Origin: Candidatus Rifleibacteriota bacterium
GTDB taxonomy: Bacteria > Muiribacteriota > Ozemobacteria > Ozemobacterales > Ozemobacteraceae
Length of the DNA: 64,000 nucleotides
Assembly (NCBI GenBank): GCA_905236675.1
Contig: CAJOND010000008.1
Span: forward strand, 1 to 64,000
Direction: 5' to 3'
Made by a program: the position numbers and the translations under genes. Positions 45,482 to 64,000 of this stretch are shown here, one piece after another (the first letter of the stretch is position 1; every line of letters starts with the position of its first letter). The notes below the pieces were generated by a model that did no database searches, was not told where the DNA came from, and was given only the letters and a program-made list of their open reading frames with translations.

Positions 45482-45538
45482 CTCTAAAAACCAGAATCAC
45501 AAGGTTCTGAAAGAACCTTGTGATTCTGGTTTTTAGAG
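45482..45538 (-). terminator. Perfect 26-bp stem-loop downstream of RNA methyltransferase gene
   Basis: CTCTAAAAACCAGAATCACAAGGTTC-TGAAA-GAACCTTGTGATTCTGGTTTTTAGAG. Confidence 0.8.
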
Positions 45539-57880: not shown

Positions 57881-57892
57881 AGGGAAAAAATC

Positions 57893-58135
57893 TCACTTTA
57901 TTTCCTGTTCTAACTCATCAAATTCAGGTGTTGAAAAAAATTCCCCCAAAGTAATACCGAAACCATCACAAAGCTTTTTAATGGTTACGGTACCAGGATT
58001 CTTGCTCTCTCCTAACAGAATGCTTTTTACAGTAGCTTGGGGTACAGCAGAAATATAGCTAATTTTATTAGGTGTTATCCCTTTAGGTTTACATAACTGT
58101 TTTATTCTAAATGCTATTGCTTCTCTTGTGTTCAT
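57893..58135 (-). CDS. XRE-family HTH transcriptional regulator
   Basis: RIKQLCKPKGITPNKISYISAVPQATVKSILLGESKNPGTVTIKKLCDGFGITLGEFF. Confidence 0.93.
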   Translation of the reverse strand: MNTREAIAFRIKQLCKPKGITPNKISYISAVPQATVKSILLGESKNPGTVTIKKLCDGFGITLGEFFSTPEFDELEQEIK

Positions 58136-58175
58136 TAATCATAACTCACTGAAATTTATTATAAAGCAAAATTTT

Positions 58176-58209
58176 TTATTGCTTTAGTGATGTATCACTA
58201 AAGCAATAA
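58176..58209. promoter_or_regulatory. 34-bp perfect palindrome, probable operator between xre and dynamin operon
   Basis: TTATTGCTTTAGTGAT-GT-ATCACTAAAGCAATAA; overlaps the -35 position of a TATAAT (58158-58163, minus strand) upstream of xre. Confidence 0.75.
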
Positions 58210-58351
58210 GCTTTTAAGTTTTATATTATTTAAAAATGTTTTTAGATTCTCTTAAAAGTGGATTTAGATAATGTTTTTTCAAAATAAACGAGTTATACAA
58301 AACCAAAAAACAAATTAGAACTTTGTTTAAAAAAGGTTAATAAAGGGGGAA

Positions 58352-60127
58352 TTGTTGATGGATAATCTTCAAAAAAATTTTTTGCTGAAAGATAATATAA
58401 ATAAGCTGAGTAAATTTGCTAATGATGCAGGATTTGCAGAAATTTCAAAAGCAACTCGAAAGATAATAAGCGATACTAAAAAACATGCTTTTACAGTTGC
58501 TGTAGTAGGTGAGTTCAGTCGTGGTAAAAGCACTCTTATAAATATGTTGTTAGGCGAAGATGTTTTACCTATTGGAGACTTACCAACAACGGCAATGCTT
58601 ACTTCCATAAAATATGGTGAAGAAAAAAACATTAGAGTCTTTAATAATAGTGGCGAGCAAATAGGCGAGTTTCCATTTAGCGAAGATTCTTGGGATAATA
58701 TCTGTAATAATAAGAGTTCAGCTGAACTTGCCAATGAAAAAGCTGTTGTATCTTTTAATTCTTCCTGGTTAAAGGAAAACGAAATTGAAATCTTCGATAC
58801 TCCTGGCGCTGGCGATTTGGAAGAAGAACGAGCTAAAGTTATTGGGGATGCGTTGCTTTCCTGTGATGGAGCTATAATCGCAATTGCTGCTACCTCTCCA
58901 TTAAGTTTAAGCGAAAAACTATTTATAGAGCAACGTTTGATTATGCATAAGGTTCCTTTTTTAATGCTGGTTATAACGAAGCTTGATTTGGTTAAGGAAA
59001 ATGAGAGAGATGGAATAATAAACTATATAAAAAGTAAGTTGCAGACTCTAAAAACTGAAATACCTATATTCATTGCTGATAAAAATACTATTCCTCAAGA
59101 TTTCGATATGAATTTTGTTGGAATAGAAAAAATAAAAGAACAAATTGTTTCATGGAAAAACAACCATGAACGTTTAAATCTTATTAATCTTTCTATGGCT
59201 GCAAAAGCTTTCTATTTTTCTAAGTCTTTATTAGACAGTCTGAAAGAAAAAAAATCTTATGTTGATAAAGATGACAATGAAATAAAAAAAGCAATTGAGG
59301 CCAAAAAGCTTCAAATTTTGCAAACCAGTTTGGAATGGGAAAATTTAAGACTTAAATTAGATGAAAAGGCAGATGAATGTACTGATTGGCTGCTAAAACA
59401 AATGTCTGCCTACAAAGATGACCTAATAGAAAGTTTAAGGGTTAGTATGTATCAAACAGACGATTTGAATAATTGGGCTGCAAAAACTTATCCTAATAAA
59501 GTAAGGTTGGAATTAACTACCATTGCATCAAACCTTTCTAGCGATCTGAAATCCAGATTTTATAGCGATAAAAAATGGTTTAATGATGAATTGCAAAAAC
59601 AATTTAATGTTCAGGTTCAAAAAGACATCATTTTCAAAAGTATAGATTTAGAACAGACGAATGCTGACTATTTCAAAGATATTATAGATAATAAAAAGGG
59701 AAATGAATCTAAGAAAACAATGCAAAATTTAGGAGTTATTGCAATATCTTTAGGTCTATGGATATTTACTCCAATTCCTCCTGTAATCTCTGTTCTTGGT
59801 GGTAAACTTCTCTCTGACTATTTTGTAAATAAAATTAGTGCAAAAACTAACATAAATTCACAGCGTGAAATTATTTGGAAAGCTATTCTTGATGAAATTC
59901 CAAGTGTAATAAATAACGCAACCTCACCAACTAGAGACAGAATTAAAACTATTTATAAAAATTTAGCAAGTGAATCTGAGGAACTTGAAAAAGTTTGGAA
60001 AGACACTCAGCAACAGTTTATAGACCAATTGTCAAATAAAGTTAAAACCAGCGGTATTGATATATGCGTGAATATTCTAGATATAGAAAATCTGCAAAAG
60101 CAGTTTCAGGCTTTTCTTGCAAAATAG
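58352..60127 (+). CDS. Dynamin-like GTPase 1 (591 aa)
   Basis: P-loop GEFSRGKST, DTPGAGD, TKLD; hydrophobic segment LGVIAISLGLWIFTPIPPVISVLGGKLL; helical C-terminal half. Confidence 0.9.
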   Translation: MLMDNLQKNFLLKDNINKLSKFANDAGFAEISKATRKIISDTKKHAFTVAVVGEFSRGKSTLINMLLGEDVLPIGDLPTTAMLTSIKYGEEKNIRVFNNSGEQIGEFPFSEDSWDNICNNKSSAELANEKAVVSFNSSWLKENEIEIFDTPGAGDLEEERAKVIGDALLSCDGAIIAIAATSPLSLSEKLFIEQRLIMHKVPFLMLVITKLDLVKENERDGIINYIKSKLQTLKTEIPIFIADKNTIPQDFDMNFVGIEKIKEQIVSWKNNHERLNLINLSMAAKAFYFSKSLLDSLKEKKSYVDKDDNEIKKAIEAKKLQILQTSLEWENLRLKLDEKADECTDWLLKQMSAYKDDLIESLRVSMYQTDDLNNWAAKTYPNKVRLELTTIASNLSSDLKSRFYSDKKWFNDELQKQFNVQVQKDIIFKSIDLEQTNADYFKDIIDNKKGNESKKTMQNLGVIAISLGLWIFTPIPPVISVLGGKLLSDYFVNKISAKTNINSQREIIWKAILDEIPSVINNATSPTRDRIKTIYKNLASESEELEKVWKDTQQQFIDQLSNKVKTSGIDICVNILDIENLQKQFQAFLAK

Positions 60128-60139
60128 GAGTTTTATAAA

Positions 60140-62152
60140 ATGGGAAATACAATCGGTTCTTACGCAGAATTTAAGGATAAACAAGAAAGATTAAGTGCAA
60201 TAATAAGAGAAAGTTCAGATTGCTTAAAAGAACTTTCTTCAAATCAATATGCAGAAAAATTAAACCAGCTTTCTAAGAAGGTTTTAGATGACAGTTTTAA
60301 AATTATGGTAGTAGGAACTTTTAAAAATGGAAAATCTACCTTTATCAATTCCATTTTAGGAAAAGAAATATTGCCTGCTTATGCTGTTCCTTGCACAGCT
60401 GTAATAAATGAAGTTAAATATGGGAAAGAAAGTGCTGTTTTATACTTTAGAAACCCTCTTCCAGATAAATTGCCTAGCGAACTTCCTGGTTCTGTCGAAA
60501 ATCATATAAACAGAAATGGGAAAAAAGATTTACCACCTATAACTATTCCATATAAGGAAATAGAAGACTATGTCTGTATTCCAATGAATAAAGACTTTAA
60601 TGAAATAGCCTTAGAAAGTCCATATGAAAAATTAGAATTGTTTTGGCCTTCTAATTTGCTGGAAAATGGTGTGGAAATCATTGACTCTCCAGGTCTTAAC
60701 GAGCATGAAACAAGAACAAAGGTAACTAGTGAATATTTGTCTAAAGCTGATGCTATTCTTTTTGTTTTAAATGCGCAGGCTATTTGTTCACAAGAAGAAA
60801 TGAAATTTATTAAAAATAGCTTAAGTTCTTATGGTTTTACAAATCCTTTCTTTATTGTTAATAGATTTGATGCTATCAGAGAACGTGAAAAACAAAAACT
60901 GATTGATTTTACACATAGCAAATTAGATCAATATACAAAACAGAAAATTTATTTTGTTTCTGCTCTCGATGCCTTAGATGGCAAAGAAGAAAATGATGAG
61001 GCTTTGCTTAATAAATCTGGTATTCCTGAGTTAGAAAATGACTTAGCTGTATTTTTAACTAACGAACGTGGAAAAGCAAAACTTAGACAACCTGTCAATG
61101 AACTTACACATATTCTTCAGAGAATTGTTCTAAATAAATATATTCCTGACCAACGCAAACTTTTAGAAGTTGACTTAAACGAAATAAAAAGACGTTTGGA
61201 AAATGAAAAGCCTAAGTTGGATGTTTTAAAAGAGAAAAAAGAGCAGTTAAAAAAGAATTTTACAAACAGAATTAATAGCACTTCTAAACAGCTAGCTTTC
61301 TTGGTCAAAGAAAACACAAGAAGTCTTGGAAATAAGGTTTCTACTTGGGTTAATGAATGTAATATTGACAAAGATGTATGGGCAGTTTCTGGTGAAGATG
61401 CGCGTAAAAAAGCTGCTGAAAAAATATTGAATTATGTTTCTGCAAAAATAGAAGCAGAACAGCATGAATGGAACAATGAAGTATTAAGGCCTGAAATAAC
61501 TAAAGGGATTGAAGAAATATTTGAATCTGCTGAAAACCGCATTTCAGAAATATATAGCGTTATTGATTCTATAAATATTGGTTTGACTGGTGGTAACCCA
61601 AATACAGAAGCAGTTCCAACATGGGAACGTATTGCAGGTGCTGTAGGCGGTTTGATGGTTGGTGATTTTTCTTCAGCTATTTCTGGTGGAATAAATGGTT
61701 TAAGTAAAGAATTTTTTCAAAATTTAGGAATAAACTTAGGTTTGGCATTTGGTCTTTCTATGCTAGGAATTTTAAATCCTGTAACTGCTATTCCTGCTTT
61801 AATAGGTTTAATTGCTCATAGCTTCATTACTGGTGGCAATAAAGTTAGAGAGCAGATTAAAAAAGGTGTTGCAGAAGAAATAGTAAAACAGCTTAGCCAG
61901 CAGTCTAATAAAATTGCAGATAATATGCAGCAACAGTTTGAAGACAAGTTTTTCAAGCAGGCAAACCAGATTATTGATGCACTGGACTTTGAAATAAATT
62001 CTGTTGAACAGAAAGTAAACGATATTATTTCGGAAAAAGAAAAAGGCGAAGAAGCTGTTTCACAAAAGAAAGCTCTCTTGAACCGCTGTGAAAAGCATAT
62101 TAGGACTATTCTCGGTTCTTTGCAAGAGTTCAACGAATTTGTGTCCGCTTAA
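60140..62152 (+). CDS. Dynamin-like GTPase 2 (670 aa)
   Basis: P-loop GTFKNGKST, DSPGLNE, NRFD; hydrophobic segment LGINLGLAFGLSMLGILNPVTAIPALIGLIAH. Confidence 0.9.
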   Translation: MGNTIGSYAEFKDKQERLSAIIRESSDCLKELSSNQYAEKLNQLSKKVLDDSFKIMVVGTFKNGKSTFINSILGKEILPAYAVPCTAVINEVKYGKESAVLYFRNPLPDKLPSELPGSVENHINRNGKKDLPPITIPYKEIEDYVCIPMNKDFNEIALESPYEKLELFWPSNLLENGVEIIDSPGLNEHETRTKVTSEYLSKADAILFVLNAQAICSQEEMKFIKNSLSSYGFTNPFFIVNRFDAIREREKQKLIDFTHSKLDQYTKQKIYFVSALDALDGKEENDEALLNKSGIPELENDLAVFLTNERGKAKLRQPVNELTHILQRIVLNKYIPDQRKLLEVDLNEIKRRLENEKPKLDVLKEKKEQLKKNFTNRINSTSKQLAFLVKENTRSLGNKVSTWVNECNIDKDVWAVSGEDARKKAAEKILNYVSAKIEAEQHEWNNEVLRPEITKGIEEIFESAENRISEIYSVIDSINIGLTGGNPNTEAVPTWERIAGAVGGLMVGDFSSAISGGINGLSKEFFQNLGINLGLAFGLSMLGILNPVTAIPALIGLIAHSFITGGNKVREQIKKGVAEEIVKQLSQQSNKIADNMQQQFEDKFFKQANQIIDALDFEINSVEQKVNDIISEKEKGEEAVSQKKALLNRCEKHIRTILGSLQEFNEFVSA

Positions 62153-62222
62153 AATAGTAGTTTTATAAATCGAGCGTTAATTGTTCTTTTTTTATATAGT
62201 TGGTCATGGATAGGAGATTGTT

Positions 62223-62699
62223 ATGGGTGATGAATTATACTTTAGTTTCATCTGTATTGGAATTGGTATTATTATAATGTATTGGGTTATGTGGGCTATT
62301 TTCAGCATTAATTGCAATAAGTGTCATACTCAAATCTGGCCTTTAAAAAAATGCCCCCATTGCCATGATGACCCAAGAGCTGAATATAAAAATTGCAATT
62401 ATTGTAACAATAGAATAAGAGCTTCTATATATAATAATTGCCCAAAGTGCGGTTATGATCCAGATGCTAGATATGTTGTATGTAGCAATTGCGAAAATAA
62501 AACCTATTATTCAAATCAAGTTTGTCCTTTTTGTAATGAGAATCCGCATGAATTTAGACCAGTAACTAAACTATTTAGATTTGGTGAAAAATTGGTAAAA
62601 GGAATAGCAAGTTCAGCACCTAAAATCGGAAGAGATTTGCAAAGAGGAGTACAAAATGTTGGAAGTAAGATGCTTTACGATTTTTTTAAGAATTTATGA
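62223..62699 (+). CDS. Membrane-anchored multi zinc-ribbon protein (158 aa)
   Basis: N-terminal TM YFSFICIGIGIIIMYWVMWAIF; repeated CxxC pairs (CNKC, CPHC, CNYC, CPKC, CSNC, CPFC). Confidence 0.82.
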   Translation: MGDELYFSFICIGIGIIIMYWVMWAIFSINCNKCHTQIWPLKKCPHCHDDPRAEYKNCNYCNNRIRASIYNNCPKCGYDPDARYVVCSNCENKTYYSNQVCPFCNENPHEFRPVTKLFRFGEKLVKGIASSAPKIGRDLQRGVQNVGSKMLYDFFKNL

Positions 62700-62753
62700 T
62701 TAGAAAGCAGAAATCTCACAGAATTAAATTTGGATAATTCAAGGACGAACTCA

Positions 62754-64000
62754 ATGTCAGATAATTCAAAATTTTATGATCATATATTATTTATAGAGCG
62801 TTTAATTGAAAATTATAAAGATAGATTAGATACTTCTCTTATCGAAGATTTAACAACTCAGTTAAATTATATAAAAGAAAAACAGCAGGATAAACTGTTA
62901 AATATAAGCGTTGTCGGTGATTTCAGCACTGGTAAAAGCACATTTATAAATGCTTTGTTAAAATGTGGTCTGCTTGAAATGGAGGATTTACAAAGCACTA
63001 CTACCGCTTCTACTATAATTGAACATGCAAACTTCTTTGGCATAGAAATAGACTATAAAAACAAAGAAAAAACTCAAAAAACTCAAAAGAAGAATAATAG
63101 TTTAATAAGTTATTTCAGCTCTTTGTTCTCTTCTAGTAAAAATAATAATATCACTAAATTTAGAACTATAGAGGAATTGAAAAATGAAATAAAAAACTTT
63201 GGAGCTTCTATAGATAAATCTAAAGATATAGAGAAGATAAATGTTTATCTGCCTGCTTTTTCCCTTAAAGATATTTTCAGAATTATAGATACTCCTGGTT
63301 TAAATGCTACAGATTTATGGCTGGAAGACATCACAAAATCAACAATAGAAAAGCTTTCCGATGCTTCCGTAATAATTGTTGATGCTAATAAGATTTTACC
63401 CAAAAACTTTTGTGATTTTATAAAAGCAAATCTTTCTAATGTGCTTTCTCAATGTGTTTTTATAGTAACTAAGATAGATCAGATTCGTAGAGAAAAAGAG
63501 CGAATAAGGGTGTTAGAGGCTATAAAAAATAAGGTGGAATTAGAATTTAACTTTAAAGACCCACTTATTTTAACTTATGTTTCTACTGAAATATTGAAAA
63601 AAAATAAATTAGAAGATGGTGAGGTAAACAGTGATTTTTTACAAATAACAGAAGAAAACGAAAGAAAACTATTGGATTACGTTAGAAATAAGAAAAAAGA
63701 AGTTCAGACTAAGAAGTTGATTTCAATGATACAACGTTTATATAACGCTATTAGTATGCAGATGAAAAATATTCGAACAGACTTTGAATCAGAACTTGCA
63801 ATGCTGATGCGCTCAAAACAAAGTGATTTGAAATCCTTTGTTTCTATTCAAAAAGATAAAAGAAGTAAAGAGTTTAAAGATGTTTTTTCTGAGCTTTCTT
63901 CTGACTATAAATTGAATTGTAAAAATGCTGGCAATACATGCGTTTCCATTTTCTTAGAACGTATAGATGAAGTTCAATGTAAATCAGTTCAAGAATTAAA
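62754..64000 (+). CDS. Dynamin-like GTPase 3, 3' end truncated by window edge
   Basis: Own translation MSDNSKFYDHILFIERLIENYKD...NISVVGDFSTGKSTFINALLKCG...FRIIDTPGLNATDLW...FIVTKIDQIRREKERIR; frame open to 64000, absent from ORF track. Confidence 0.88.
   Translation, partial: MSDNSKFYDHILFIERLIENYKDRLDTSLIEDLTTQLNYIKEKQQDKLLNISVVGDFSTGKSTFINALLKCGLLEMEDLQSTTTASTIIEHANFFGIEIDYKNKEKTQKTQKKNNSLISYFSSLFSSSKNNNITKFRTIEELKNEIKNFGASIDKSKDIEKINVYLPAFSLKDIFRIIDTPGLNATDLWLEDITKSTIEKLSDASVIIVDANKILPKNFCDFIKANLSNVLSQCVFIVTKIDQIRREKERIRVLEAIKNKVELEFNFKDPLILTYVSTEILKKNKLEDGEVNSDFLQITEENERKLLDYVRNKKKEVQTKKLISMIQRLYNAISMQMKNIRTDFESELAMLMRSKQSDLKSFVSIQKDKRSKEFKDVFSELSSDYKLNCKNAGNTCVSIFLERIDEVQCKSVQEL

Follow-up and report, generated by a model that had tools for sequence, protein, structure and literature searches.

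At its right edge, the 64,000-nucleotide stretch analyzed here (the window, positions 1 to 64000 of contig C8, with window and contig numbering identical) carries a divergent XRE gene followed, on the opposite strand, by genes for three dynamin-like proteins (DLPs) and several small partners, in the order DLP1-DLP2-zinc ribbon-DLP3-ORF5-ORF6. The source genome comprises 5.17 Mb in 228 contigs, and this contig goes on past the window edge to position 75,758. The sequence-only reading had proposed that the system extends beyond the right edge, and the downstream sequence bore this out: past DLP3 were two extra genes, ORF5 and ORF6, the latter ending the operon 2.0 kb outside the window and ahead of uvrB (66293-68365, minus strand). 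The gaps of 12, 70, and 54 nt that it gave for DLP1/DLP2, DLP2/zinc-ribbon, and zinc-ribbon/DLP3, respectively, were correct.

The three GTPases had been described as consecutive, distinct, and encoded on the same strand. Indeed, all three were intact and scored above the Pfam Dynamin_N cut-off. DLP1 (58352..60127, plus strand; 591 amino acids; likelier start, ATG at 58358) matched Dynamin_N at 2.8e-25; DLP2 (60140..62152, plus strand; 670 amino acids) matched it at 5.3e-28 and the bacterial dynamin helical domain PF21808 at 6.9e-23; and DLP3 (plus strand, from TTG at 62730 to 64712, beyond the window; 660 amino acids) matched Dynamin_N at 5.7e-19. For DLP3, the ATG at 62754 is the better start since homology to the copy in a sister genome begins there. 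Each protein carried the P-loop (GEFSRGKS, GTFKNGKS, and GDFSTGKS in DLP1, DLP2, and DLP3, respectively), G3 (DTPG, DSPG, and DTPG), and G4 (TKLD, NRFD, and TKID) motifs previously listed, as expected of a GTPase domain of the bacterial dynamin superfamily. A match to small GTPases of the Era/EngB type, which would have spoken against a dynamin assignment, was not obtained; Era, EngB, and Der families scored about 34 bits or less against curated equivalog cut-offs of 116 to 307 and were rejected. The Dynamin_N matches were far above the cut-off and are therefore neither chance nor Era/EngB-like.

Outside the G domain, hydropathy analysis placed one strong hydrophobic stretch on the C-terminal side of each DLP (residues 461 to 479 in DLP1, 541 to 559 in DLP2, and 529 to 547 in DLP3). 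Thus, the paddle-like hydrophobic segments ascribed to the first two GTPases were found, but they are not limited to those two, as DLP3 also has a candidate paddle, of the glycine-zipper type. DLP2 aligned with Nostoc BDLP1 (PDB 2j68) over its whole length (residues 31 to 658; 1.8e-42), and this match, together with PF21808, indicated a helical neck/trunk with a paddle; by alignment, DLP2 is homologous to BDLP1 along its full length. DLP1 matched BDLP1 (2j68; 2e-15), Cj-DLP2 (5owv_C; 1e-10), and IniA (6j72; 6e-9) in the G domain, and DLP3 matched Fzo1 (2.6e-8) and Cj-DLP1 (5.2e-7, over residues 36 to 508). Both are predicted to be helical and contain a hydrophobic stretch, with weak AlphaFold models (mean pLDDT of 55 for DLP1 and 47.5 for DLP3). 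The G domain of the DLP1 model had pLDDT values mostly of 65 to 87, with IniA and BDLP as its closest folds, the models being weak outside the G domain. Fold comparison of these weak models ranked IniA, BDLP, and Cj-DLP first for DLP1 and Cj-DLP1, Fzo1, and BDLP first for DLP3. In the predicted G domain, DLP1 thus resembles Cj-DLP2, IniA, and BDLP1, and DLP3 resembles Cj-DLP1 and mitofusin. In a G-domain tree, in which many deep forks were unresolved, DLP1, DLP2, and DLP3 did not form one clade, so a recent tandem triplication was not supported.

The predicted membrane zinc-ribbon protein between GTPases 2 and 3 was also present (62223..62699, plus strand; 158 amino acids), with a single N-terminal transmembrane segment (residues 9 to 27), three CxxC-CxxC ribbons, and a C-terminal tail; its match to DZR (PF12773) was at 4.7e-6 and 27.1 bits, against a cut-off of 27.3. 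ORF5 (64836-65357, plus strand; 173 amino acids), which lies outside the window, is an orphan with no family match. ORF6 (65361-66044, plus strand; 227 amino acids), also outside the window, encodes a hydrophobic DUF697-like membrane protein that had no direct match to Pfam PF05128 and was 29.7% identical (tblastn; 5e-4) to a plasmid GTPase in the DUF697 portion of the latter. No relatives of the zinc-ribbon protein or ORF5 were found on plasmids. Elsewhere in the source genome, a stand-alone DUF697-like small protein (105-amino-acid frame; G000:C12:176893-177210; L127 6894-7211) adjoins a 106-amino-acid XRE gene, and its counterpart in the sister genome G016 (L128 7094-7642; 182 amino acids) is longer.

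The repressor gene (57893..58135, minus strand; 80 amino acids) encodes a Cro/C1-type protein that matched Pfam HTH_26 above the cut-off (7.8e-7). Across the remaining 39 genomes of the phylum, it had no homologue at E of 1e-6 or less, and relatives up to 50% identical occur on Bacillota plasmids, which points to an origin from outside. Upstream of this gene lies an unstranded palindrome (58176..58209) that is perfect over 34 bp (16+2+16: TTATTGCTTTAGTGAT-GT-ATCACTAAAGCAATAA) and beyond chance: none of 2,000 shuffles of the intergenic stretch reached perfect 16-nt arms. Its core was unique in its own genome and absent from the relatives searched except for one site with one mismatch. The stem is AT-rich, and the palindrome also scored as a terminator-like hairpin. 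An XRE gene 46% identical in product, on a Subdoligranulum plasmid, is preceded at 52 to 85 nt from its start by a perfect 15+3+15 palindrome of other sequence; two further XRE relatives examined had no comparable palindrome. The palindrome is a probable XRE operator, and its natural reading would be autoregulation of XRE together with control of the divergent operon. The earlier proposal that the GTPase genes are under XRE control is plausible in view of the repressor's position inside the inserted unit and the similar spacing in Subdoligranulum, but autoregulation is the safer claim because only 41 nt separate the palindrome from the XRE start, compared to about 148 nt from DLP1. At 45482-45538, the window holds a separate perfect 27-nt inverted repeat with a 3-nt loop, longer than any other perfect hairpin detected there.

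Comparison with a genome of the same genus (G016) defined the borders of the locus. Similarity stopped at position 57882, just past a DUF1848 gene, and restarted at 66293-66294, at the end of uvrB. In G016, some 2 kb separate DUF1848 from uvrB on a single contig (C297), without the operon genes, and the XRE-to-ORF6 block therefore behaves as one inserted unit. In this genome pair, the block of about 8.4 kb (57883-66292), which holds XRE, the palindrome, the three DLPs, the zinc ribbon, ORF5, and ORF6, either occurs complete or is missing entirely. Its GC content was 0.311, compared to 0.337 upstream and 0.358 downstream. In G016, the gap between DUF1848 and uvrB is occupied instead by an ATPase gene (C297; L155 2320-3648) whose product matched the PADLOC candidate-defense family PDC-S01 at 9.5e-109; the homology break and the different occupant indicate an accessory gene hotspot. 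The flanking DUF1848 gene matched PADLOC RTasDUF1848; it was rejected as a part of the operon because it remains beside uvrB in the sister genome, where the operon is missing. PADLOC gave no defense gene match on the block flanks in the source genome, the PDC-S01 match being confined to the sister's substitute gene, and a classical defense island was rejected for this reason. No integrase or transposase was seen at the block edges. A phage-borne system was likewise rejected, since viral contigs held essentially no relatives of the operon proteins and no PHROG was found for DLP1, DLP2, the zinc ribbon, ORF5, or ORF6. The locus thus comprises seven genes (XRE and six others) between defined borders.

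A scan of contigs from close relatives returned a single match, a 3,009-bp contig binned with the sister genome (G016 contig C60, RUG334 contig ONIU01000269.1; L011), which is short and could have been misbinned. It carries the DLP2 end, the zinc-ribbon gene, DLP3, and the ORF5 start in the same order; the zinc-ribbon protein at this position has 86 amino acids, a transmembrane segment, and one ribbon. Scattering of the three GTPase genes would have counted against a single system; this part-copy keeps the order of those genes that it holds. The survey of the arrangement, three GTPases plus zinc ribbon, found it in that one other genome only and in part, so within the genomes searched it is not widely conserved. 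DLP1 was not found in G016, and the full gene set has therefore been seen once only. DNA identity to this copy was 97.4% for DLP3, 95.3% for ORF5, and 77.9% for the DLP2 end, compared to 82 to 86% for DUF1848 and uvrB and 67 to 88% for other shared genes. The DLP3 and ORF5 values, above those of other shared genes, indicate recent transfer. Residues 530 to 580 of DLP3, the paddle, account for half of the nonsynonymous and 10 of the 23 synonymous codon changes (10 of each kind in 51 codons). Positive selection on the paddle was rejected because synonymous changes were equally enriched there, which makes recombination likelier. Judged from these identities, the operon is a mosaic in which some segments have been recently shared, whereas others have diverged or been exchanged, namely, DLP2, the zinc-ribbon gene, and the paddle of DLP3. 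Together, these results support the conclusion that the gene block is horizontally acquired and mobile, comprising three distinct, complete DLPs and their partner genes. We also considered that recombination may swap the membrane-contact parts (the DLP3 paddle, the zinc ribbon, and the DLP2 end) and keep the rest, as in a three-subunit dynamin immune complex whose modular membrane recognition diversifies like that of other defense sensors; this idea is quite unlikely.

DLPs are common and often clustered in the 40 genomes of the phylum, and no cluster examined has the gene set of DLP1 to ORF6. A second multi-GTPase cluster in the source genome (G000:C15:52800-60000; L087 4824-11984) encodes a 431-amino-acid MMR_HSR1+DUF697 GTPase, a 359-amino-acid P-loop protein, products of 224 and 425 amino acids, and a divergent dynamin of 787 amino acids that narrowly missed the Pfam cut-off. 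In another genome of the genus, a 17-kb contig (G017:C43; L079 469-16182) holds four very large, divergent dynamin-like ORFs (688, 948, 904, and 889 amino acids) and a 760-amino-acid P-loop protein. Three consecutive DLP genes on accessory replicons, with an extra partner gene, were also found on the Lysinibacillus plasmids pFN9B (1000, 642, and 575 amino acids) and pFN9A (759, 786, and 793 amino acids) and on the Escherichia coli plasmid pZ1323PEC0011-3 (L094 5111-12699), where DLPs of 563, 725, and 406 amino acids accompany an 829-amino-acid CFI-box-CTERM protein. The E. coli operon occurred in 5 of 5,426 E. coli genomes, always plasmid borne. These triples differ from the operon described here in their partners and in having no one-to-one tree pairing with DLP1, DLP2, and DLP3: the three DLPs of pFN9A formed a clade of their own, and the second and third E. 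coli DLPs grouped with a DLP pair of the source phylum. Three-DLP operons were therefore probably assembled independently, more than once, as far as the G-domain tree can tell. The multi-DLP operon is an already known kind, of which three DLPs with three small partners and a repressor represent an unusually elaborate version and no new category.

Bacterial DLPs usually work as heterotypic pairs and have mostly been described as pairs or fusions; some members serve in repair or secretion. The Campylobacter pair Cj-DLP1/Cj-DLP2 (PDB 5owv and 5oxf) follows the same heterotypic operon logic, with DLP3 and DLP1 as the respective likenesses; it forms a 2:2 tetramer that tethers membranes, but its neighbor is beta-lactamase-like, and both a third DLP and a zinc ribbon are missing (PMC6104087). 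BDLP1 of Nostoc (PDB 2j68, 2j69, and 2w6d), which shares Dynamin_N and the bacterial helical domain with DLP2, is encoded together with BDLP2 (PMC4159319) but without the two more DLPs, zinc-ribbon protein, and DUF697-like gene found beside DLP2. That the three genes here are a chance gathering in an island of separate units, such as one pair and one solo protein, might be argued from their failure to form one clade and from a gene order known from two genomes only, one of them partial. Yet the genes share a strand with gaps of 12 to 70 nt, and in the sister copy the zinc-ribbon gene still separates DLP2 from DLP3, with ORF5 next in line, which makes this explanation unlikely. A LeoABC-like (Eleos) system, in which DLPs would bud membrane vesicles that export cargo, was considered because DLP2 matched PADLOC LeoA (3.9e-26; 90 bits) and also LeoBC; LeoABC, too, is a multi-gene dynamin locus carried on islands, and leo mutants release about half of the vesicle cargo (PMC4159319). 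However, bacterial dynamins in general resemble PADLOC LeoA, with matches across plasmid DLPs, and the score with the NCBIfam LeoA subfamily (LeoA_gen) was 34.1 bits against a cut-off of 325. Leo consists of LeoA and one DLP split into LeoB and LeoC (PMC4159319), whereas the present operon has three complete DLPs, other partners, and no cargo gene, and vesicle export is very unlikely.

The main rival is a role in envelope maintenance, in which the DLPs would mend damage from membrane-active compounds and confer antibiotic or bacteriocin tolerance, as IniA/IniC or DynA do. The G domain of DLP1 resembles IniA, such roles of DynA and IniA are known from the literature, and tolerance predicts the same anatomy; a conflict role is favored over it because the accessory, transferred, and mosaic nature of the block and its candidate-defense alternative occupant fit conflict better than housekeeping, so that tolerance is possible but doubtful. 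In Bacillus subtilis, the DLP DynA acts against phage: it forms clusters at the membrane, and phage lysis is delayed (PMC8844932). It differs from the proteins described here in being a two-headed fusion; DLP1 to DLP3 are single headed, and DLP1 and DLP2 scored 39 to 56 bits with NF052648, against a cut-off of 1600.

We therefore favor, at a probability of roughly 0.5, a mobile, self-regulated membrane-GTPase operon whose products would form a heterotypic complex that tethers and reseals membrane, most plausibly against phage. A hetero-oligomer of DLP1 to DLP3 in membrane surveillance or defense is consistent with known DLP pairs, and the circumstantial evidence of island, transfer, and alternative occupant makes an anti-phage role of the predicted complex plausible. 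Counting against it are the lack of an adjoining defense gene in the source genome, of an integrase or transposase at the block edges, and of more than a few viral relatives, as well as the repair and secretion roles of other DLPs. The three DLPs would assemble at the inner membrane, with the BDLP1-like DLP2 as the main membrane-inserting remodeler, DLP1 and DLP3 as a tethering/adaptor pair, and the transmembrane-anchored zinc-ribbon protein and ORF6 anchoring or recruiting the complex. Upon envelope damage, most plausibly from phage infection or lysis, the complex would be derepressed or assembled, and membrane tethering and resealing might then delay lysis or limit the intruder. An operon with three divergent, complete DLPs and dedicated membrane partners suggests that heterotypic dynamin complexes extend beyond pairs. 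Moreover, as a defined transferable unit of 8.4 kb, it allows direct tests of the number of DLPs and the kind of anchors that a working machine requires and of whether that machine protects against phage.
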